DNA of 64,000 nucleotides, from contig NZ_CALSBP010000002.1 of NCBI RefSeq assembly GCF_943373825.1, forward strand, positions 3,089,501 to 3,153,500. Direction: 5' to 3'. Below the pieces are notes generated by a model that worked only from the letters and a program-made list of their open reading frames with translations, was not told the origin of the DNA and made no database searches. Position numbers and translations under genes: made by a program. Positions 1 through 13,200 of the stretch are shown piece after piece. This DNA comes from Aquimarina spinulae. GTDB lineage: Bacteria; Bacteroidota; Bacteroidia; Flavobacteriales; Flavobacteriaceae. Within the stretch, counting starts at the first letter, position 1. Each line of letters opens with the position of its first letter.

Positions 1-3000
1 GCAGATAGAGTTGCAGATCAAGTGGTGGCAAAAACGTCAGAATCGACTACTCCTTTCTTTAGTCCGGCTCCTTTTGTACAACGCCAAACAGATGAAAAAG
101 AAGGTGATGTTCAACAAAAACCGATTGCAGAAAGCATTACCCCAGTAGTTTTAAGACAACCTGAAGAAGAAACAGCACAAAAGAGCACAGAAGTCCAAAA
201 TAAGGCAGAAGTAAGTGATGGAGTATCTATGAAACCATCAGATCATTCGTCAACTAATTTTGATACCCAGAAACAGGAAGAAGAGGTTCAGGAAAAAGAA
301 GAAGAAGAGGTTTCAGAAGTACAACAAAAAAGTAAAACACTCCAAAGAAAAGAAATAGGTGTACCTACTGTAACGAATACAATTGAATCGAGGATTCAAA
401 GAGCTTCAGACAATGGTAAACCCATGAGCAAATCGGTTAAAGGTTCTATGGAATCTGGTTTTGGAACAGATTTTTCTGGAGTAAAAGTTCATACAGATAG
501 TGAATCTTCTAGCCTTAATAAGCAGATGAGTTCCAAAGCTTTCACCTATAAAAACAATGTCTTCTTTGGCGAGAATCAATATCAACCTGAGACTAAAGAA
601 GGTAAACATTTGATCGCTCATGAGCTTACTCATGTGGTACAACAAGGACATGCTCAGAAAGGGGAAAATGCAGTTGCTACAGAAACGGTTCAACCTAAGG
701 TACAACGATTAGGGATTAGTGATGCGCTTGATTATTTTGCAGATGCAGCACATAATATCCCTGGTTTTAGAATGTTCACTATTATTTTAGGGATCAACCC
801 TATTAATATGAGTAGTGTTGATCGAAGTGCCGCTAATATTATGCGAGCTATTGTCGAGTTCTTACCTGGAGGAAACCTGATCACCAGAGTATTGGATAAA
901 TACAATGTGTTTACCGATGCTGCAGAATTAATGAATCAAAAAATAGAAGCGTTAAATCTATCTGGAGCATCTATAAAGAAGGACATTGACGATTTTCTGG
1001 ATGGCCTTGGTTGGAGCGATATTTTTAATCTTGGCGGTGTCTGGCGTGACGCCATGGGGATCATCTCCAGACCTATAAATGCAGTAATTGAAATTGGTAA
1101 AAGTGCACTGTCATTTATATGGGATATTGTTAGAAAAGCTATCCTAACTCCATTAGCTGTCCTAGCACAAAATACTGACGGATATGACCTATTAAAAGCT
1201 TTGATAGGTGAAGATCCGATTACTAAAGAAGCTTATCCACCAACTGCCGAAAATCTAATAGGCGGATTTATGAAATTTATTGGTCAGGAAGAAATCTGGA
1301 CCAATATACAACAAGGAAATGCTGTTGGTCGAGCATGGGTTTGGTTTCAGCAAACAATGTCAGGAATCAAAGCAATTATGTCTGCAATTCCTGGTACCAT
1401 TATTACTACAATTAAGTCTCTTACCTGGGAAGACATCATTATACTTCCGAATGCCTTTATCAAAGTAGGAAAGGCCTTTGCCAGTATCGCCGGTAGTTTT
1501 TTAAGTTTTGGGCTTTCAACGGTTATAGAACTTCTAAAAATACTATTTAGTGTAGTAGCACCAGGAGTATTAGTATATATAGAAAAAGCACAAGGAGCGT
1601 TTAATCAAATACTAGAAAATCCAATTGGGTTTGTAGGTAATCTGATCAACGCAGCTAAACTTGGATTTAACAAATTTGCACGAAACATTGGTAAACATCT
1701 TAAGAATAGTCTATTGGATTGGTTGTTGGGATCTTTGGCTGGAGCCGGTATTTATATTCCTCAAGCCCTCAGCTTTCAGGAGATTATCAAGTTTGTATTA
1801 TCTGTATTAGGACTTACTTGGGAGAATCTGAGAGCCAAATTAGTGGAGCAATTAGGTGAACCTGCTGTGGTAGCTTTAGAAACCGGATTCGAATTAGTGA
1901 AAATTCTCGTTACAGAAGGACCTGCTGCTGCTTGGGAGAAGATCATGGAGCATCTTAGCAATTTACAAGAGATGATTATTTCGGAGATCAGTCAGTTTGT
2001 AATTGTAAAAGTTGTGCAAAAAGCAGTAACCAAGCTTGTCACTATGCTAAACCCAGCAGGAGCAGTCATTCAAGCAATTATAGCTATTTATGATACGGTT
2101 ACATTCCTGATCGAAAAACTGCAAAAGATCGCTCGTGTAGCAGCAGCTATTATAGACTCACTAGCAGCGATTGCCAATGGAGTTATTACTCAGGCAGCTG
2201 CCAAAGTAGAAAGTACATTGGCTGGAATGCTAACATTAGCGATCAACTTCTTAGCTAAGTTCACAGGATTAGATAAGGTCTCTGAAAAGATTATAGAAAT
2301 CGTAGAAAAAATCAGAGAACCGATCGATACTGCCATGACCAATGTCGTTACTTGGGTTGTGACTACAGCTAAAAACTTCCTTAAGAAAATATTAGGTGGA
2401 GGAGATGAAGGAGAAAACCCTGAGGATAATGACGGGGTTGTTGGTGATGGAGAAATAGGAGAGCAAGTAACATTTAGCGATGGTGAAGAAGGGCATAAAT
2501 TATGGGTAGAGGATTCTGGATCTCCTGTTTTAAAGGTTGCTAGCGCGAATCCTAAAGCGGTTGGTGATAAGCTTACTGAATGGCAGAATAACATTGATAA
2601 AATTTCTGAAGGCAAGAGAGGAGAAGTAAGCCAATCGATTAGCAGTGCTCAAGGTCTGGTTACGGCAATTAATCAGTTAATTACTACATACCAGCAACAA
2701 GAGGCAACGGCTACACCTGAGAATGATGCTCCAGTAGAAACAACCGATACTTCCATCGAAAATAAACAGAAAGAGCTAAAAGTATTGCTTCAGAAGTTAT
2801 TTAGTGATTTTAAGGAAAAAAATACCTTAACAGTAGAAGTTGCGGAGAATGATAAAATTAAAGCTCCTTATAAAGGAGATAAAAAGTTTAGAGCGGTTGT
2901 TAAAAAAGTTGATGATAGTAATGAAGATCCAGAAAAAAATAAGGTAGAACATCAATTTAATTGGGAACGTTTAAAACAAAGAAATCAAGAGAATACTTTT

Positions 3001-3753
3001 ACTGCCTTTAATGAAAAATGGGGCTCTGAAATTGAAACTGATTCTGGAGGTAGTAGCGAACATAGTGATTATAAACCTCAAAATATTGAGCGATCAGTAG
3101 AAGGCGATTCCTTTGTGCTGAAGTATGATTATGGACCTGAAGGTTTAGGCAAAGATGAATTGGAGACCATAGAAGTCAAAATGAAAATCGATGATATTTC
3201 AGGAAGAAAAGTAAACCATGCGGTAACTGGTATGAACTTAGGAATTAAAGCTTCAGGATCCAGAGGTAGAACAGATAGTGCAGGTAAATTAATGAGAGAA
3301 GGTGTAGATACAACCGATTTACCGCAAATGAATTCTGCACATATTATTGCAGACTGGTTTCAAGGAAGTGGTTATAAACAAGGGTTAAATTTAATTTTAA
3401 CTAGTGATACCTATAATCAGACCACAATGGCAGGAGCAGAAGGGAAACTTGTCGGGAAAATTCAAAAACTTCAGTCACAACATGAGCCATTATTAATTAC
3501 TTTTGATCTACAAGTAACAGCAATTTATGAAGTGACAAATGATGATAAAGTTGTGGAAACACTTAAGAATTTAAAATCTGATATAACACCGGAAGGATTG
3601 GCTAAGGTGCATCAAAAATTAGCAGGAGATCAAGATCCAAGAAGATGTGAAAAAGTTACCTATGATGTATTGGCCGTTAAAGCGGGAGGTGTTGGAGTAG
3701 AGCATTCTATTAGACAAATAGAAATAGGACCAGACGTAAATCTAAAAATATAA
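1..3753 (+). CDS. DUF4157 eCIS-type cargo protein with nuclease-like C-terminus (5' end outside window)
   Basis: The reading frame is open to base 1 and the residues before the first GTG read ADRVADQVV, the usual entry to a DUF4157 domain, so the gene starts left of the window. The DUF4157 core is at nt 380-660, with a zinc-peptidase-like HELTH motif (H at 619-621 and 631-633). A Glu/Gln-rich linker precedes it. A long helical, hydrophobic middle part (about nt 700-2400) follows, then an acidic linker. The C-terminus carries SAHIIADWF (His codon 3340-3342) and downstream NLI and YNQ, which resembles the active site of DNA/RNA non-specific (beta-beta-alpha metal) endonucleases. DUF4157 proteins are known eCIS-associated cargo. 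I infer a polymorphic toxin loaded into a contractile particle; the nuclease call is moderate, the DUF4157 call strong. Confidence 0.85.
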   Translation, partial: ADRVADQVVAKTSESTTPFFSPAPFVQRQTDEKEGDVQQKPIAESITPVVLRQPEEETAQKSTEVQNKAEVSDGVSMKPSDHSSTNFDTQKQEEEVQEKEEEEVSEVQQKSKTLQRKEIGVPTVTNTIESRIQRASDNGKPMSKSVKGSMESGFGTDFSGVKVHTDSESSSLNKQMSSKAFTYKNNVFFGENQYQPETKEGKHLIAHELTHVVQQGHAQKGENAVATETVQPKVQRLGISDALDYFADAAHNIPGFRMFTIILGINPINMSSVDRSAANIMRAIVEFLPGGNLITRVLDKYNVFTDAAELMNQKIEALNLSGASIKKDIDDFLDGLGWSDIFNLGGVWRDAMGIISRPINAVIEIGKSALSFIWDIVRKAILTPLAVLAQNTDGYDLLKALIGEDPITKEAYPPTAENLIGGFMKFIGQEEIWTNIQQGNAVGRAWVWFQQTMSGIKAIMSAIPGTIITTIKSLTWEDIIILPNAFIKVGKAFASIAGSFLSFGLSTVIELLKILFSVVAPGVLVYIEKAQGAFNQILENPIGFVGNLINAAKLGFNKFARNIGKHLKNSLLDWLLGSLAGAGIYIPQALSFQEIIKFVLSVLGLTWENLRAKLVEQLGEPAVVALETGFELVKILVTEGPAAAWEKIMEHLSNLQEMIISEISQFVIVKVVQKAVTKLVTMLNPAGAVIQAIIAIYDTVTFLIEKLQKIARVAAAIIDSLAAIANGVITQAAAKVESTLAGMLTLAINFLAKFTGLDKVSEKIIEIVEKIREPIDTAMTNVVTWVVTTAKNFLKKILGGGDEGENPEDNDGVVGDGEIGEQVTFSDGEEGHKLWVEDSGSPVLKVASANPKAVGDKLTEWQNNIDKISEGKRGEVSQSISSAQGLVTAINQLITTYQQQEATATPENDAPVETTDTSIENKQKELKVLLQKLFSDFKEKNTLTVEVAENDKIKAPYKGDKKFRAVVKKVDDSNEDPEKNKVEHQFNWERLKQRNQENTFTAFNEKWGSEIETDSGGSSEHSDYKPQNIERSVEGDSFVLKYDYGPEGLGKDELETIEVKMKIDDISGRKVNHAVTGMNLGIKASGSRGRTDSAGKLMREGVDTTDLPQMNSAHIIADWFQGSGYKQGLNLILTSDTYNQTTMAGAEGKLVGKIQKLQSQHEPLLITFDLQVTAIYEVTNDDKVVETLKNLKSDITPEGLAKVHQKLAGDQDPRRCEKVTYDVLAVKAGGVGVEHSIRQIEIGPDVNLKI

Positions 3754-3769
3754 CAATAAGAAATAATTT

Positions 3770-4339
3770 ATGGAAGAGGTGATTAATTTTTTAAATGATT
3801 TTTTTCAATCAGAGGTTAATGCTATTAAAGCTAGTGATCAAGCTGATCTAGATAATTTTAATGACAAACTTGAAATAATGAATCAATTTCTTGTGGATGA
3901 TTTAAAAAATAATCTAGGAATGATTCCTTTAAAGGAATTAAAAGATCCTAATTATTATGAAAGGGTAAAAAATTATCCACCACCAGATCCTAGGTTTCTT
4001 TTTAGGATTGATACTTACAAGAGTAATGATAAAGATTATTATAGATATCATTGTTTTGTTTCTGATAGTAATCCTGATGATTGGAGGAGTTATCTGAATT
4101 CTTTTGTTGTAGATAAGGAGGGTGGGGAATTTAAAATTTTTTCCATGTTTTTCTTTTCTGATAAAGGTATGGGTGGAGATAAAAAATGGCATTTCAATGC
4201 AGGAGAAGATAGATTTATGAATAAAGAGAATGGACAATATTTGTTGAATATAGAATCATTAGGTGATCGAATCGAAATCAATAGAATTACAGAACCTTCT
4301 GATGACGCAGATAGCATGAAAGAATATAATAAAGATTAA
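3770..4339 (+). CDS. Small acidic hypothetical protein, probable immunity partner
   Basis: A 189-residue cytosolic protein with no signal peptide or membrane segment, starting 16 nt after the stop of the DUF4157 gene. It begins with a helix rich in acidic residues and continues with aromatic, strand-rich sequence (for example FRIDTY, YRYHCFV, FKIFSMFFF), a pattern similar to NTF2-fold immunity proteins; I cannot prove that family. It is acidic and AT-rich compared with its neighbours. Position directly behind a gene ending in a nuclease-like domain suggests it neutralises that toxin. Function is inferred from context only. Confidence 0.7.
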   Translation: MEEVINFLNDFFQSEVNAIKASDQADLDNFNDKLEIMNQFLVDDLKNNLGMIPLKELKDPNYYERVKNYPPPDPRFLFRIDTYKSNDKDYYRYHCFVSDSNPDDWRSYLNSFVVDKEGGEFKIFSMFFFSDKGMGGDKKWHFNAGEDRFMNKENGQYLLNIESLGDRIEINRITEPSDDADSMKEYNKD

Positions 4340-4376
4340 GTATTCATCCAGAAAACACCCCATAAAAGAACCGTTG

Positions 4377-4403
4377 TATACCCCCGAAAAAAGTCGGGAT
4401 ATA
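4377..4403 (+). other. Short GC hairpin between immunity-like gene and CHAP gene
   Basis: CCCGA (4383-4387) can pair with TCGGG (4394-4398) over a 6-nt A-rich loop, with ATA/TAT pairs outside. There is no T tract, so it is a poor intrinsic terminator; it may be an mRNA processing or attenuation hairpin. Confidence 0.3.
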
Positions 4404-4434
4404 GCATTAGATTTATATACAAATCCATAGTAAG

Positions 4435-5253
4435 ATGAAAAAAACGGCATATAAAAAGGAGCTAGTAATTAGAAATACACAGCAAAGAAATGGCTCTTCA
4501 AACAGTAGAAAAGAGGTAAGGAAGATTCAATCCTGGCTAACCTTATTTAGTATTCAGCATCCTAGTAGTGGTACAGCAACCAGTATTGATGGCGATTTTG
4601 GTCCCGCAACCGAAAGAGCCGTTAAGAATTTTCAACGTATAAAAGGATTGTCAGAAAATGGCATAGTAGATCAAGGTTTGTTTAGTGAATTGTCTGCTAA
4701 CTTAAAAGATGCTTTTGAAAGACCATTACAGAGTACTGATGTTAGAAGTTTGATTGCTGAAGTGGCAGAGAATCACCTACAAAATCATCCTTTTGAATTG
4801 GTTATTAATAGACAATCTAATAGTGGTCCTTGGGTGCGAAGTTATATGGATGGAGGTGATGGAGAAGATTTTTTTTGGTGTATGGGATTTGCACAAACTA
4901 TTCTTGATCAGGCTGTAAGTCATGTGGGTAAAAGATTTACTTCGTTAATGCCTTCCACATTTAGTTGTGACTCGGTAGGTAATGCCGGAATTGCAAGAGG
5001 ATTACTTTCTAAAAATAAAAAAATTAGAAGGAATTCTGACTTAGTAAAACCTGGAGACTTGTTTTTGATTGAAAGTAGCCCGCTGGATTGGACACATACA
5101 GGAATTATAACATCGATCCAAGGTGATGTAATTGAAACCATTGAAGGGAATACTAATTTTCAGGGCTCTAGAAATGGTGTTACTGTGCGTAAACGAATGC
5201 GTAATTATATGAGATCCAGGATAGATGTATTCTCAATCGAACCTTTAACTTAA
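4435..5253 (+). CDS. Peptidoglycan-binding and CHAP-like hydrolase of the eCIS locus
   Basis: A 272-residue protein with no signal peptide. Residues about 25-90 form a PG_binding_1 repeat (DGDFGPATERAVKNFQ). Residues about 105-265 look like a CHAP/NlpC-P60 type cysteine hydrolase: Cys149 in FFWCMGF, His221 in WTHTGI, then Glu237/Asn239 in EGNTN, in the order Cys-His-polar. Lack of a signal peptide fits an enzyme delivered or released by a phage-like particle or lysis rather than by Sec. It lies 11 nt upstream of the AAA+ ATPase gene, so the two are probably co-transcribed. Similar wall-binding hydrolases accompany eCIS loci in Bacteroidetes (family knowledge); the target wall is unknown. Confidence 0.8.
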   Translation: MKKTAYKKELVIRNTQQRNGSSNSRKEVRKIQSWLTLFSIQHPSSGTATSIDGDFGPATERAVKNFQRIKGLSENGIVDQGLFSELSANLKDAFERPLQSTDVRSLIAEVAENHLQNHPFELVINRQSNSGPWVRSYMDGGDGEDFFWCMGFAQTILDQAVSHVGKRFTSLMPSTFSCDSVGNAGIARGLLSKNKKIRRNSDLVKPGDLFLIESSPLDWTHTGIITSIQGDVIETIEGNTNFQGSRNGVTVRKRMRNYMRSRIDVFSIEPLT

Positions 5254-5264
5254 AATACCTGTCG

Positions 5265-6609
5265 ATGGAACCTGTTTTTACAAAAAATACTACTCATTTT
5301 AATGGCAAATTTTCCTTCTTACAAGAGGTGATAGAATATCGTTTGCGATACGAGTACACCAGTGAAGAAGCTGTTTTTCCTGTTTTTGATACAATGGTGG
5401 CAGATGATTCATCGTTTTCTCAATTTGTCAACAAACTTGATTTGTCTCAAGAAGAGATCATTATTTTATTAACAGCATTAATTCCACATGTTTCGCCCTA
5501 TTTTTTTATAGATATTATTACTGATTTTTTTCCAAATGGAGGTGAACTTCCAGAATTTGGTGGTGTAAAAGGAAAAAATCATAGGGGTATTATCCCTACC
5601 GGAGAAACTATTCAATTTATGTTAGCTGGCAAGGATCTGCAAAAACGGATAGAGGTTACATCTTATTTTGAACCTACCCATCCATTCGTAAAAAAAGGCG
5701 TTCTAAGATTAGATGCTGTACCTACAGGAGAGCCTATTATGAGTGGGCGATTGATTCTGGATCAGGAATATGTAGAGCTGTTTACTACAGGGAGAATGGT
5801 AAAACCTACTCTTAGTAAAGATTTCCCTGCCGAAAGGATTGAAACGTTACTTTCCTGGGATGATCTTGTGCTTAATACAAAAACCCTTAACCAGATAAAA
5901 GAAATTGAAACCTGGCTTCAGTATAATCATGTGGTTTTGGATGATTGGAAGATGGGAACCAGAATTAAACCTGGATATCGTGTCTTGTTTTCTGGCCCTC
6001 CGGGAACCGGAAAAACCTTAACTGCTACATTATTAGGTAAATATACCGGTGAAGATGTATATCGTATTGATCTTTCTATGGTCGTTTCAAAATATATAGG
6101 AGAAACAGAAAAAAACCTTTCTAGACTTTTTGATAAAGCTAAAAATAAATCCTGGATACTGTTTTTTGATGAAGCAGATGCCATTTTTGGTAAAAGAACG
6201 AATGTAAGAGATGCACATGATAAGTATGCTAATCAAGAAGTATCGTACTTACTACAACGTATAGAATCCCATCCTGGATTAGTGATTCTGGCTTCAAATT
6301 TTAAAAACAACATAGATGTAGCCTTTACTCGTCGATTTCAAACAATTATAGAGTTTGAAAATCCATCTTATCAAGAACGACAGTTATTATGGCAAAAAAA
6401 ACCTTCCTGCCGCTATAGCTTTAGGAGAAACGGTTTCGTTAGAAGAGATTTCCAAAAAATATGCGCTTACTGGGGCGAATATCATCAATGTGATACAATA
6501 CACCTGTCTTAAGACCATAGCTCAAAATCATAAAGTTATCCAATTAGAAACTATTCTCGAAGGGATTAAAAAAGAATATTTGAAAGAAGGAAAAATGATT
6601 ACGATCTAA
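5265..6609 (+). CDS. eCIS-type AAA+ ATPase, +1 frameshift near the C-terminus
   Basis: Walker A GPPGTGKT starts at residue 244, Walker B FFDEAD is near 299-304, and an arginine-finger-like TRRF is near 355. An N-terminal winged-type region of about 200 residues precedes it. This layout is that of the ATPase found in eCIS loci (Afp15-like), thought to act in particle assembly or release. After LLWQK at about nt 6398 the first frame runs on to a stop at 6512, while frame +1 continues the expected lid helices (NLPAAIALGE..., ending GKMITI) to 6609. The change happens in eight As (6394-6401); seven As would restore one 447-residue protein. Either a sequencing error, a real mutation, or transcriptional slippage at the A run. 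Confidence 0.82.
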
Positions 6610-6947: not shown

Positions 6948-7931
6948 ATGAAAAACAAGAATTATGAATATGATGTTGCGCTTTCTTTTGCTGGAGAGAA
7001 TAGAGCATATGTAGAAGAGGTTGCGAACAGCCTTAGGGTAAGAGGGATCAAGGTGTTTTATGACCTGTTTGAAGAAACAAACTTATGGGGTAAAAACTTA
7101 TATGAGTATTTATCCGAGATTTATCAAAACAGGGCAAGATATACAGTACTATTTATATCAGGGTTTTATAATCAAAAATTATGGACAAACCATGAGAGGG
7201 CCTCTATGCAAGCAAGAGCATTTCAGGAAAGTAGAGAATATATTTTGCCTGCTAGATTTGACGATACAGAGATTCCCGGGATATTGAAAACTGTAGGATA
7301 TATTAACTTGAAAGATAGAAGTCCAGACGAGTTTGCAGGGCTGATCGAAAAAAAATTAAAAAAAGATCAAACTTTTTTGAAAAGTAGATGGTCAAAAATT
7401 TCTACCCTGATCAATCCAAAGCCGTTCATTTTTACTATTAAAGTGGTAAATGAAAAAGAAGAATCAATTAAAAATGCCAAAGTAGTTTTGGTCGCTAATA
7501 ATTCTACATACCTTGAAGGGTTTTCTGATGAAAAAGGATTAGCACATTTTATTATTCGAACGCGTAAATTATATACTGTGCTTATTGCGCACCCAGAATA
7601 TCCGGCCGTATTATTTAAAGATATTAACCCAAAGGAGGATATAGAAGTAACTGTAGAAAAATTAAAAGGATCAGGTTCTGTGATCCTTAATAAATCTGGA
7701 GAAACACCAGGGATTATGGGGAGGATAAAACCTGTGTTGAAATCAAACAATAGGATATCATTATATGCTGATAATATAGCGATTGAAGGGGGACAACATC
7801 AACCTTATGATATTGAGTTAAATAAATCAATAATTTTAGAAGATAATGGAGGAAATAGTATACATTTAACCTTCAGATTCTTTCAAGGGAGAATCGCTTT
7901 AATCGATTATTGTAAACACAAATTATCTTAA
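6948..7931 (+). CDS. TIR-domain protein with C-terminal beta domains
   Basis: Residues about 5-130 form a TIR domain: YDVALSFAG opens strand A, an RGIKVFYD motif follows, and LWTNHERASMQ places a Glu (residue 83 from this start) where bacterial TIR NADases have their catalytic Glu. Residues about 165-235 resemble a carboxypeptidase-regulatory-like beta-sandwich (VVNEKEESIKNAKV ... YLEGFSDEKGLAHF). A third beta-rich segment ends the protein. No signal peptide or membrane helix. I chose ATG at 6948 over the GTG 3 nt upstream. The stop is 2 nt before the next gene's ATG, so the two form an operon. Bacterial TIR proteins often act in abortive anti-phage defence by degrading NAD; that role is inferred here. 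Confidence 0.8.
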   Translation: MKNKNYEYDVALSFAGENRAYVEEVANSLRVRGIKVFYDLFEETNLWGKNLYEYLSEIYQNRARYTVLFISGFYNQKLWTNHERASMQARAFQESREYILPARFDDTEIPGILKTVGYINLKDRSPDEFAGLIEKKLKKDQTFLKSRWSKISTLINPKPFIFTIKVVNEKEESIKNAKVVLVANNSTYLEGFSDEKGLAHFIIRTRKLYTVLIAHPEYPAVLFKDINPKEDIEVTVEKLKGSGSVILNKSGETPGIMGRIKPVLKSNNRISLYADNIAIEGGQHQPYDIELNKSIILEDNGGNSIHLTFRFFQGRIALIDYCKHKLS

Positions 7932-7933
7932 TT

Positions 7934-9004
7934 ATGAAAAGAGTAATCATCTTTTTTAGTTTTATTTTGTTTTTGGCTTGTAAAGAACAGCCAAAGGAAA
8001 CGGCAGAAACACCTATTATCGAAACTGCCAAGGAGGAAATTAAAAAGCCAGAGGATAGTTTTGGAATTGTAATTCATGGTGGAGCAGGAACTATCTTGAA
8101 AAAGAATATGACTCCAGAAAAAGAAGCGGCGTACAAAGCTAAACTTGAAGAAGCAATAAAAGTAGGACATACCATTCTTAAAAATGGAGGTACTAGCCTT
8201 GAAGCTGTCGAAAAAACGATAAATGTTCTTGAGAATTCTCCATTATTTAATGCAGGTAAAGGAGCAGTATTTACTAATGAAGGAACTAATGAATTAGATG
8301 CTTCTATTATGGATGGTAGTAACCTTAATGCCGGGGCAGTAGCAGGAGTTAAAACCGTTAAAAACCCGATCAATCTGGCTAGAGAAGTAATGCTTAATTC
8401 TCCTCACGTGTTATTATCAGGTAGTGGTGCCGAATTATTTGCTAAAGAAAGAGACCTTGAGATTGTTGATCCGGCTTATTTCTTTACAGAAGATCGTATG
8501 AAATCGCTAGAGAGAGTAAAAGAAAAACTAAAAAACAAGGAAGCAAATAAAACAACTGCTTTTTATGATCCGTTTATAAAAGACTCTAAGTTTGGAACGG
8601 TTGGCTGTGCAGCATTAGATAAAAATGGAAATTTGGCCGCAGGAACCTCTACAGGAGGGATGACCAATAAAAAATGGAATCGTATAGGAGATTCACCAAT
8701 TATTGGAGCAGGAACATATGCCAATAATGCAACTTGTGCAGTATCAAGTACAGGATGGGGTGAGTATTTTATACGAGCGATGGTGGCACATGATATTTCG
8801 GCATTAATGGAGTATAAAGGGCTTTCTCTTCAAGAAGCTGCCAAAGAAGTAATACAGAAAAAACTTACCGACCTCGGCGGTACAGGAGGAATTGTAGCGA
8901 TAGATAATAAGGGTAATGTAACGATGGAATTTAATACAGCGGGAATGTATCGTGCAACAATGAATGCTACTGGAGAACTTACTATAGGAATTTATAAAGA
9001 GTAA
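7934..9004 (+). CDS. iaaA: Isoaspartyl peptidase/L-asparaginase, lipoprotein
   Basis: Ntn-hydrolase of the glycosylasparaginase/isoaspartyl peptidase family (356 aa). After an SPII signal (LFLACKE) comes the IHGGAG motif. The nucleophile should be Thr222 in KFGTVGCAA, the usual autocleavage site (GTVG), followed by STGGMTNK and the second half with GWGEYFIR and GTGGIVAID. Cleaves beta-aspartyl peptides or asparagine. The lipobox means it acts in the periplasm or on the outer membrane. Directly coupled to the upstream TIR gene and ended by a strong terminator. Confidence 0.92.
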   Translation: MKRVIIFFSFILFLACKEQPKETAETPIIETAKEEIKKPEDSFGIVIHGGAGTILKKNMTPEKEAAYKAKLEEAIKVGHTILKNGGTSLEAVEKTINVLENSPLFNAGKGAVFTNEGTNELDASIMDGSNLNAGAVAGVKTVKNPINLAREVMLNSPHVLLSGSGAELFAKERDLEIVDPAYFFTEDRMKSLERVKEKLKNKEANKTTAFYDPFIKDSKFGTVGCAALDKNGNLAAGTSTGGMTNKKWNRIGDSPIIGAGTYANNATCAVSSTGWGEYFIRAMVAHDISALMEYKGLSLQEAAKEVIQKKLTDLGGTGGIVAIDNKGNVTMEFNTAGMYRATMNATGELTIGIYKE

Positions 9005-9027
9005 TATTCTTCTTAAAATTTTAATAC

Positions 9028-9055
9028 AACCCTCCTACTAAGGAGGGTTTTTTAT
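9028..9055 (+). terminator. Intrinsic terminator after iaaA
   Basis: AACCCTCCT (9028-9036), loop ACTA, AGGAGGGTT (9041-9049), then a T run. Nine-base-pair GC-rich stem with a tetraloop: a textbook rho-independent terminator. Confidence 0.9.
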
Positions 9056-9159
9056 TTTGAAGATATTGTAGGGCAAAAATTCACTATTTTCTGGGGGAAA
9101 TAGAACCAGAAATCTCATTACTTTTACCCAATAATTACAATAATATAAATGGTAGACTG

Positions 9160-10092
9160 ATGAAAAGAATATTGATTTTTGTAATAATCTGTATGATGAA
9201 TAAAAGTATGGCTCAGAATAAGGAAAATATAGTTGGTTTATACGCATTAGGCTCTCATTCTCCAGAAGGGGGAAGTCATCTATTCGTTTTAGAAAATGGC
9301 AAATTTGTGATTACTTACTTTGGAGGAGTACAGGTAGGTAGTTGGCGTATAGATAGAGATCATACTTTTTTGTTTACTCCAAATACAAAAAAAAATGAAT
9401 TCGAACTTTATGGGAGATATAATAAAAAGATAAAAGACAGTTTAAAAATCTCTTTTATGGGATTTGAAGAATCACGAAGTTTTGTGAGTTTAAAAAAATC
9501 AAAAGATGATCACTATATTATGAAACAGGTATTTAATGATGACGCTAACTGTTTTGGTTATCCTTATGTAGAAACTTTTAAAAAGAATTCAGATGTGATT
9601 TCTTTTATGGCCATAAATGAAGGAATGAATACAGCAGTAATTGATTTTAATATAAAAGGATCTAATGATTTTATAGCTTGTTTTTTTACTAGAGAAAATG
9701 AGGCATATCCTTTTTATGTTATGTTAAAAGACAACAAACTATATATAGATGAAAACGAATATTCAGAAAAACGCCCTTTGCCAACAGAAGGAGAAGATAT
9801 AGAATTTATTAGAGCAATAGCCAATAAGAATACTTCTGAAACTGTACTCCTTTATAACCCTTCATATAACCACTTTAAAGAGGATATTAATGCAAACCAT
9901 ATTTTTGATAAAGAAAAACAAGCATATATTGATCTAGAATTTTATAAAGAAGGAAATGAAAATAGAATAGATGATGAAGCATTTTTTGATATGTCCATCA
10001 TCTATAAATATGAATTGTGTACAGGTACCTTTGCCAGATCAGTTGATTATAAAATTGAAGATAAACCTATTTTTCAGGTTAATTGTAAATAA
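9160..10092 (+). CDS. Secreted protein of unknown function
   Basis: A 310-residue protein with a signal peptide ending near SMAQ. The mature N-terminus (IVGLYALGSH, FVLENGKFVITYFGG, GSWRIDRD) looks like a beta-barrel or lipocalin-like fold with repeated strand pairs. No catalytic motif and no sorting domain seen. It is alone between a terminator and the alpha-2-macroglobulin gene. I do not recognise the family. Confidence 0.8.
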   Translation: MKRILIFVIICMMNKSMAQNKENIVGLYALGSHSPEGGSHLFVLENGKFVITYFGGVQVGSWRIDRDHTFLFTPNTKKNEFELYGRYNKKIKDSLKISFMGFEESRSFVSLKKSKDDHYIMKQVFNDDANCFGYPYVETFKKNSDVISFMAINEGMNTAVIDFNIKGSNDFIACFFTRENEAYPFYVMLKDNKLYIDENEYSEKRPLPTEGEDIEFIRAIANKNTSETVLLYNPSYNHFKEDINANHIFDKEKQAYIDLEFYKEGNENRIDDEAFFDMSIIYKYELCTGTFARSVDYKIEDKPIFQVNCK

Positions 10093-10242: not shown

Positions 10243-13200
10243 ATGAAATTATCGCGAATTCTCTATCTGTTACTTTTTGTAACACTTGTATTTTCTTGTA
10301 AGAAAAAAGATGATCAATCTATAGCTGAGGCAAATGCTTCAGAATTAAATAAGTATCAAGAATATATCTCAGATGTATCTTCAGGGGTAATTTCGGTTTT
10401 GGATAATGTATATGTTGTATTACAAACACCAGTAGAAGGTTGGGATGATAATCAAGAACTACCAAAAGATATACTTACTGTATCACCAAAAGTAAAAGGT
10501 AAAATTATTGCCGTAAATAATCGAACTATTTCTTTTCAACCAGAAGAAGGGTTTGATGAGGACACAGCTTACACTTTTACGCTAGATTTAGAAGAATTAG
10601 TTAAAGATTTTAAAGACGATCTTGATGAAGAATTTGTCTTTACAGTGAAAACGTTAAAACAACAGTTTTCTATTATTACAGATAACCTTCAGTCCTATAG
10701 TAAAGATTGGCAATATATAGATGGAACGATAACATCTAGTGATCAAATGAAATTTGATGTTGCCAAGCAACTTATTACTGCTTCGCAAAAAGGAAAGAAA
10801 GTAGCTGTAAAATTTAGTGAGTCAATCGATAAAAGCCGTCAGTTTAGTTTTAGAATAGATAGTATTCAACGGTTTGAAGAAGATTCAGAAGTTACTATTA
10901 AATGGTCTGGTAAATCTTTCGATATAGACACAGAAGGAGAAGACGTATTATCCATTCCCGGGAAGAATAATTTTTCTATAATTAGTGTTTCGGTTGCCAA
11001 TGTGGATAACCAATATGTCGAAATCAATTTCTCTGATCCACTTAGGAAAAATCAAAACTTTAATGGTCTGGTTACTATTTCTGGAGCCAAAAATTTAAAA
11101 TATACTGTACAGGGCAATGTCCTTAAGGTATATCCAAAACAAGAACTTAAAGGAACATTAGAGGTAACCGTTTTTGAAGGGATTAAAAGTACAGATAACT
11201 ATAAATTAAAGAATACATATACCGAAAAAGTATCTTTTCAACAACCAAATCCAGAGATTCGCTTACTGCAAAGCGGAGTGATTTTACCCACTTCAGATAA
11301 TCTGAAATTTAATTTTGAAGCGATCAACCTTCGTGCTGTCGAAGTACAGGTAGTTAAAGTCTTTGAAAATAACGTCCTTCAGTTTTTACAAAACAATAAC
11401 CTTAACGGCTCTGGTGATTTAAGAAGTGTAGCAAGACCAATTGCCAAAAAACTAATTAACCTTCAGGAAAATCCATCTTTAAATCTTAGTAAATGGAATG
11501 CTTTTGCAATTGATTTAAAAAAGCTGATTACACCTGATCCTGGAGCAATCTATAGAGTAGAACTAAATTATCGAAAAACCTATTCGCTGTACAAATGTGA
11601 TGGTGTGGCTGCAGATGATACTCCGATTAATGAATTAACAGATAATTATGACGAAGAAGAGGAATCTAGTTTTTGGGATAGCTCTCAATATTACTATGAT
11701 GATTATTACGATTACAATTGGGAAGAAAGAGAGAACCCATGTAGCACTTCTTACTTTAGAGATAAAAAGATCAGTGCAAATGTATTAGCTTCTAATCTGG
11801 GAGTAGTCGTTAAAAAAGGGCTTAACAATGCATATATGGTTACGGTTAATGATATTATTACCACCAGCCCTGTATCAAATGCAAAAGTAACTTTTTACAA
11901 TTATCAGCAGCAAGAGATGGGAGTGGCGACTACCGATGCAGAGGGAATAACTGGTTTTGATGCAGATCGCCCGGCATATTTTGCCATTGCCCAATCCGGA
12001 AAACAACAAACCTATGTGAAATTAAATGATGGGAACGCATTATCGGTAAGCAAATTTGATGTTTCTGGAGTGAGATTACAAAAAGGAATCAAAGGATATA
12101 TTTACGGAGAACGCGGTGTTTGGCGTCCTGGAGACACCTTATTTTTATCTTTTATACTTAATGATAATGCAAATAAATTACCCAAAGGACACCCGGTAAA
12201 ATTTGAATTACGTGACCCATATGGTAAAGTGACTTACCAGGAAACAAAGACTAACGGTACCAACAATTTCTACAAATTTGTTGTACATACTTCTGATGAA
12301 GCGCCTACCGGTAATTGGCAAGCCAAAGTTAATGTTGGGGGAGCTAATTTTAGCAAAACACTTAAAATTGAAACCATAAAACCTAATCGTCTTAAAATCA
12401 AAACGACTTTTGACGATGAAGTTTTGGGAGTTAATAAGAATATACAAGGTAATCTAGAAGTATTATGGTTACATGGTGCAATAGCAAAAAACCTGAAAAC
12501 AGATATCAATGTTCGATTCAATCCAAAAACAACCCGTTTTAAAACCTTCCCGGGATATGTTTTTGATGATCCAACCCGTAGGTTTGGAACCGAGGAACAA
12601 GAAGTATTTCAAGGGCAAATTTCTAACGAAGGAAAAGCGAGTTTTAACCTTAGACCAAAACTAGAAAATAAAGCTGCCGGAATGCTAAAAGCTTCTTTTA
12701 TTACGAAGGTATATGAAAATGGAGGAGATTTTAGCACCGATGTGATTAGTAAAGAATTTTCTCCATATAGTACCTATATTGGAGTAAATGTTCCTAAAGG
12801 TGATAAAGCACGAGGAATGTTGTTAACCGATACAAAACATAATTTTGAAGTTGTCTCTGTAGATGACAAAGGAAATCCTAAATCGGTCAAAGACCTTGAA
12901 GTCTTTATCTATAAAGTCGATTGGAGATGGTGGTGGGATACATCAGAAGATAATCTGTCTTCTTATAATAGAGGATCATATCATAACGAAGTATTTAAGA
13001 CCAAAGTAACAACGGGTAGTAATGGTAAAGCAAACTTCAATTTTGAATTAAAATACCCAGAGTGGGGAAGATACCTGGTAAGAGTAGTAGATCCAAATGG
13101 AGGGCATGCTACCGGAAAAATAATGTATATCGATTGGCCAGGTTGGGCTGGGAAATCACGTAAAAATGATCCTTCGGCGGCAACAATGTTGTTATTCTCT

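Follow-up and report, generated by a model that had tools for sequence, protein, structure and literature searches.

A predicted nuclease-tipped cargo of a contractile injection system and its candidate immunity gene in Aquimarina spinulae

Does the long gene at the left edge of this stretch of Aquimarina spinulae DNA encode a toxin, and is the small gene directly behind it the antidote? The window, i.e., the whole 64,000-nt stretch analysed here, comes from a 6.24-Mb genome (G000; contig 2, positions 3089501–3153500). According to the open reading frame list and the genome sequence, its left open frame (1–3753, + strand) crosses the window's left edge and encodes the last 1250 residues (47–1296) of a 1296-aa cargo protein, whose gene begins 137 nt before the window, the first 46 codons falling outside it. 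The partner gene (3770–4339, + strand), which encodes a probable NTF2-like immunity protein of the cargo tip, begins 16 nt past the cargo stop and is compact and acidic, as an earlier note on this DNA had recognised (189 aa, pI 4.57, charge −14). That note had read the two genes as a contractile-particle effector with its antidote, a reading largely supported by the extracellular contractile injection system (eCIS) cluster, the nuclease homology and the partner linkage described below. Overall, the two genes probably form an eCIS toxin–immunity pair, consisting of a nuclease-tipped cargo and a dedicated immunity protein, with bacteria among the targets.

The long cargo gene closes an eCIS cluster lying just left of the window. 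The earlier note had made its reading depend on sheath, tube and baseplate genes in this direction, and these were found within approximately 23 kb. The structural genes, all in one orientation, comprise Pvc16_N, the sheath, two tube proteins, CIS_tube, hub/spike, gp25, Baseplate_J, a PKD-domain protein and CIS_TMP (CIS tape measure protein). The sheath protein corresponded to the PHROG tail sheath, with a Pfam score below the cut-off when scanned as a truncated frame, and both tube proteins corresponded to the PHROG tail tube, the one scanned in Pfam matching gp19. For a 900-aa gene inside the cluster, nothing matched in PHROGs. The cluster also contains another eCIS_core cargo, the first of the two (560 aa), and the two eCIS_core matches of the whole genome both lie at this cluster. 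In the window cargo, the predicted DUF4157 region is clearly present as Pfam eCIS_core (PF13699; residues 187–263, window positions 421–651, + strand), with a score of 100.1 bits against a cut-off of 22 (E 8e-29) and with the HExxH motif in the form HELTH at residue 253 (619–633).

The C-terminal segment that had been likened to beta-beta-alpha-metal nucleases was located at the expected end of the protein (SAHIIADWF at residue 1158, NLI at 1176 and in three other places of the cargo, and YNQ at 1184). It lies within a tip (residues 1061–1296; 3043–3750, + strand) that sequence homology relates to the divergent Endonuclea_NS_2 (PF13930) or Tox-NucA type, two names that we take to denote the same family. 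The Pfam cut-off of 27 bits was passed by seven of nine further tips (L027, L028, L029, L030, L031, L036 and L037; 28.0–37.3 bits), and the other two, L009 and L034, remained below it (24.1 and 15.0 bits, respectively). None of six other relatives scored above the cut-off; the best of them, P0011, reached 26.5 bits and bears a precomputed PF13930 label, and P0010 gave no match. When a profile of window-like tips was aligned by hhalign with a profile of six passing tips (all but L027), the match extended over 146 columns including the motif (probability 99.6%, E 4.8e-24). Residues A1159, H1160 (3340–3342), N1176 (3388–3390), N1185 (3415–3417) and E1193 (3439–3441, all + strand) were invariant in all eight tips compared, and the last four are presumably catalytic, as in other beta-beta-alpha-metal nucleases. 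This signature (AH, N, N, E) has A in place of G but is otherwise the GH, N, N, E that Zhang et al. (2012, PMC3482391) give for Tox-NucA. The same tip was present in G458, a second genome of the window's species, and was 100% identical in a record of Aquimarina sp. AU58; one DUF4157 protein of AU58, not necessarily this cargo, is reported as non-toxic in yeast by Danov et al. (2024). Neither the cargo and partner sequences nor the two profiles had a significant match among PDB sequences, and the cargo and partner were unmatched in PADLOC at E up to 0.001 and in NCBIfam at E up to 0.1.

The partner matched nothing in Pfam or NCBIfam (E up to 0.1 in both), and Pfam, we presume, includes Imm-NTF2 models. 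P0003, P0004 and the AU474 partner had no Pfam match even up to E 1, and some other relatives had weak, unrelated matches only. The fold is likely, though not securely, NTF2-like. One tryptophan was invariant among 17 family sequences. The family comprised 35 proteins in the large protein set and occurred in 7 of the 395 genomes of the class sample, one of them marginal; no relative was found in the phage collection. The genome matches in G278 (E 7e-4) and G470 (E 8e-4) were marginal and were treated as chance.

How tightly is this family bound to the tip? Among 66 genomes of the genus, the tip was found in seven and the partner in six, and in the five genomes with both, the two were always adjacent (5/5). 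The partner lies directly downstream of the tip in the window species and Aquimarina macrocephali (16 nt each), in Aquimarina AU474 and G026 (8 nt each) and in G407 (28 nt). The cargos of AU474, G407 and G026 (1550, 1547 and 1675 aa, respectively) differ from the window cargo in length and in their middle part, and thus the tip–partner pair sits on different chassis. The G026 partner is a distant cousin, which the narrow partner profile (A3) did not list; an alignment joining it to three genes of the array described below matched A5 (the array group) at 98.0% and A3 (the close partners) at 82.5%. In Streptomyces philanthi (L009), a partner-profile match lies directly behind the tip (8914–9240; 35.9 bits, E 5.9e-10 in 1437 frames), and because its apparent first part was seen by eye in another frame, the gene looks broken or mis-assembled. 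A partner relative adjoins the tip in six of the six distinct loci of the tip clade with known context, four of which were used to build the partner profile, with G407 and Streptomyces outside it. This count does not cover P0003, P0004, P0007 and P0009–P0013; of these, the tips of P0007 and P0009–P0012 fall in the tree on the side that has the partner. The invariant tip residues, together with partner relatives beside the tip in several lineages, make the observation more than chance.

The comparison with A. macrocephali suggests that the tip and its partner are also exchanged together. In 150-nt steps, DNA identity was 94–100% up to position 2050, 86–94% over 2051–2500, 55–87% over 2501–4150, 97–99% over 4151–6400 and 86–100% further right. 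The divergence block (2501–4150, defined by DNA identity and synonymous divergence, dS) takes in the tip and extends through the first two thirds of the partner, with a gradual left edge and a sharp right edge inside the partner. Along the effector, dS was 0.112 over residues 1–730 (0 to 0.29 per 100-codon step up to 700), rising from about residue 601, and reached 0.479 over 731–880, 1.23 over 881–1060 and 1.56 over the tip. In the partner, dS was saturated over residues 1–125, with a nonsynonymous divergence (dN) of 0.37, and fell to 0.065 over 126–189, close to the 0.060 of the next gene. Synonymous divergence rises along with the rest, which argues that the block arose by recombination, from a donor that had diverged, and not through selection by itself. 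The tip moved as one piece with the N-terminal two thirds of the partner. The exchange rests on this one allele pair; in a second pair, G407 and AU474, synonymous sites were saturated or nearly so throughout and were uninformative.

Partner genes were also found apart from eCIS cargos. In G033, a genome with no eCIS_core match, 11 partner-family genes lie within 7.1 kb, eight of them recovered by profile A3 and three more from the A6 group. A short frame ahead of the first copy matched the tip profile at its C-terminal end (20.1 bits). The array is preceded, at a distance of 3.3 kb, by a gene with a weak SUKH-1 match (24.7 bits against a cut-off of 25.4) and is directly followed by the gene of a long protein that looks similar by eye. 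Two copies (7377–7943 and 10735–11301) are nearly identical, which suggests a recent duplication. The surrounding 13-kb stretch (L026:1920–15534) has the appearance of an immunity locus and also contains a TPR-like protein by eye. In Aureibacter tunicatorum, the partner occurs on two plasmids. On pAT5, there is an 8-nt overlap between it and the gene of a 1720-aa protein ending in a window-type tip (108 bits to the tip profile in total, 96 for the best stretch); this protein had no Pfam match, eCIS_core included. On pAT4 (L057), an Ntox15 toxin gene and a GAD-like/Tdi1-type immunity gene come first, then an orphan tip of 161 aa (88 bits) and, last, the partner. The G033 array and the plasmid loci bear the hallmarks of the polymorphic toxin systems and polyimmunity loci described in Zhang et al. 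(2012, PMC3482391). Features expected of a polymorphic toxin–immunity system were found in adjacency, varying chassis, joint exchange, an orphan cassette and an immunity array.

A different situation was observed in a sister clade of tips. A partner relative was found in none of six sister-clade loci (L028–L031, L036 and L037) when the fetched stretches, approximately 3.5 kb for L036 and L037, were searched with profile A7. Genome-wide searches were likewise negative, with A7 for G448 and G421 and with the narrower A3 for G279, G396, G129 and G209. The surroundings of these tips are eCIS-like: a lysin-looking gene, by eye, follows the tip in five of the six, and a window-like ATPase lies nearby in all five stretches long enough. 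L036 and L037 are not themselves eCIS_core matches in their genomes (G448 and G421, respectively). The difference between the clades (6/6 versus 0/6) corresponded to a Fisher p of 0.002. In the tip tree, the two-clade split was the only supported one (99/96); one inner branch was starred, ten were open, and a long-branch warning applied to L027 with L028 and others. The tree was computed without G458, the plasmid tips and the partial P0013, and P0008 in it is locus L055. We tentatively propose that eCIS nuclease cargos of this kind form two sister clades, with and without an NTF2-like immunity gene, in which the presence of the gene reports whether the particle is directed against bacteria, kin among them, or against another target, or else is manufactured only by cells committed to lysis; this idea is rather doubtful at present. 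If true, the clade split would go some way to explaining the absence of immunity genes for most eCIS toxins.

Taken together, these data suggest how the pair may work. The cargo N-terminus with eCIS_core would serve loading or processing, and the long middle would act as the chassis. The last approximately 235 residues are predicted, by homology, to be a metal-dependent DNA/RNA nuclease degrading nucleic acid in the injected cell, and the 189-aa partner would bind and block this tip, shielding the producer and its kin. Tip and partner would be swapped together between strains, with the rest of the operon kept, as in polymorphic toxins. That the nuclease requires an immunity protein in a bacterium would place bacteria among the particle's targets. 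The immunity role proposed in the earlier note was strengthened by co-inheritance, block exchange, the array and the orphan cassette, and it is still something we infer from sequence.

One alternative departs from this explanation in the target. The tip could be aimed mainly at eukaryotes, the partner only guarding the producer from leaked toxin, and this version overlaps with the favoured explanation except for the target, so that the likelihoods given here do not sum to one. A precedent is Pne1 of the metamorphosis-associated contractile structures (MACs), an eCIS-delivered nuclease that acts on eukaryotic cells and is lethal to cell lines from eukaryotes (Rocchi et al. 2019, after PMC10598620); the likeness is by description. 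Protection of the producer alone would equally require a partner. However, the exchange of tip–partner alleles and the partner array in a non-producer look like inter-bacterial conflict, and the sister-clade tips have no partner relative, so producer protection alone seems not to demand one. We therefore consider a mainly eukaryotic target unlikely.

A second alternative regards the partner as a tip-specific chaperone or an eCIS loading adaptor instead of an immunity protein. A tip chaperone would be expected to be encoded beside the tip and to co-vary with it, as the partner does, and an eCIS toxin need not have an immunity gene, since for most of the toxins they verified Geller et al. (2021, PMC8213781) were unable to find one alongside. 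Against this stand the eleven partner-family genes in a genome without an eCIS_core match, the partner accompanying an orphan tip beside the Ntox15/Tdi1 pair, the partner behind a tip on a protein without eCIS_core, and the six sister-clade tips that manage without a partner, which together make a chaperone or adaptor improbable. Finally, that the partner is an ordinary NTF2-like gene placed by accident, unrelated to the tip, draws on a family member in a conserved neighbourhood with no recognised toxin in four species of one genus, and it is highly improbable in view of the adjacency in 6/6 distinct tip loci, in 5/5 genus genomes with the tip clade and in both plasmid matches.

Several observations weigh against a nuclease toxin with a dedicated immunity protein. 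The window tip itself does not reach the Endonuclea_NS_2 cut-off (16.5 bits when the whole protein is scanned and 17.2 with the tip alone). The AlphaFold model of the tip, based on a 10-row alignment, had a predicted local distance difference test (pLDDT) score of 76 overall, with N1185 and E1193 on a long, fairly confident helix (tip-model residues 121–145), and no nuclease was recognised among the 50 matches listed by each of Foldseek and VIA for this model, whose motif region, including the H1160 loop, had a pLDDT below 50. The nuclease-like tip of the earlier note was upheld by sequence homology, and the predicted structure neither confirmed nor excluded the fold. Tip-less partner relatives occur as one copy each in four species of one genus (L043–L046), in a conserved chromosomal neighbourhood between muramidase-like and amidohydrolase-like genes (named by eye) with no recognised toxin. 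Moreover, the presence or absence of the partner across the two clades represents one change on the tree, not six independent events. Regarding the tip, its assignment as a divergent, putative Endonuclea_NS_2/NucA-type nuclease is nevertheless well supported at the sequence level, with the structure unconfirmed. Regarding the partner, further tip-less relatives were found beside an LRR-like protein in G404 and near a SUKH-like gene (by eye) in G712, one each, and neither these two genomes nor those of the four species had an eCIS_core match. Given these relatives, the family is not everywhere immunity to a window-type tip, and a purely immunity family is a view weakened by the conserved single-copy genes, which are possibly a domesticated immunity protein or have a different role.

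The kind of system described here is already known. Tables 2 and 3 of Zhang et al. (2012, PMC3482391) list Tox-NucA on a PVC-metallopeptidase (DUF4157) chassis, with Imm-NTF2, Imm36 or Imm-SUKH as its immunity proteins. The window pair shares with these systems the DUF4157 chassis, the nuclease motif (GH there, AH here) and the proposed NTF2 immunity fold; it differs from Imm-NTF2 in the lack of a Pfam match noted above and in its single invariant tryptophan, compared with the three conserved tryptophans listed there. The same source describes a notable share of PVC systems as having no adjacent immunity genes, and Geller et al. (2021, PMC8213781) call the absence of such genes for antibacterial eCIS toxins an intriguing mystery. 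The RES-like EAT5 and its antitoxin in that study are also a toxin and an antidote gene beside an eCIS, but belong to other toxin and antitoxin families, and rescue in E. coli is reported for EAT5 whereas the window pair is predicted. A 2023 review (PMC10598620) states that no eCIS immunity genes have been identified, which conflicts with Geller et al. In Halogeometricum (2024, PMC11566945), the toxicity of DUF4157 toxins is described as relieved by a downstream gene in tandem expression, but that system is archaeal and contact-dependent and is likened here by description. AlgoCIS (PMC8894135) likewise has two DUF4157 cargos in one eCIS cluster, Cgo1 and Cgo2, which are located in the tube lumen, Cgo1 inhibiting the growth of E. 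coli; their C-termini are described otherwise (Cgo1 as a possible metalloprotease), and the word 'immunity' is absent from the main text. No paper on the window tip–partner pair was present among the matches listed in the open-access literature, and the immunity family, the block exchange and the split into clades with and without antidote look new.

What the locus offers is a defined eCIS cargo beside a candidate immunity gene, one whose family has no model in the libraries searched. It comes with a natural pair of alleles and with a partner-less sister clade of the same nuclease, and the target range of the eCIS and the need for self-protection are now directly testable with two small genes.

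The neighbouring genes fit the surroundings that the earlier note had pointed out, i.e., a CHAP-like hydrolase and an eCIS-type ATPase downstream. The first, at 4435–5253 (+ strand), is a peptidoglycan-binding gene of the eCIS cluster with a CHAP-like part (24.7 bits in Pfam, slightly below the cut-off of 26), and by inference would be the release lysin. The second is an AAA ATPase by Pfam and by comparison with A. macrocephali (5265–6512, + strand, continued in 6355–6609), in which a run of A breaks the frame near the 3' end; the A. macrocephali copy (L007) is whole (447 aa), and a sequencing error and a real loss cannot be told apart from this assembly. A TIR-domain protein (328 aa, PF13676; 6945–7931) follows, is syntenic in A. 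macrocephali and may be a further eCIS effector. It is likened by description to the TIR toxin EAT15 of Aquimarina atlantica, which is reported as toxic to E. coli and yeast by Danov et al. (2024). Left of the window, the first eCIS_core cargo (L003:17502–19184) has a C-terminus without a Pfam match and carries a long tandem repeat of EEEEPVQ-type units ahead of eCIS_core. In G026, four eCIS_core matches with small genes between them occur within 13 kb (contig 1, 667401–680514; three of them in L027); this is likely an eCIS armed with several toxins, with more candidate immunity genes besides.

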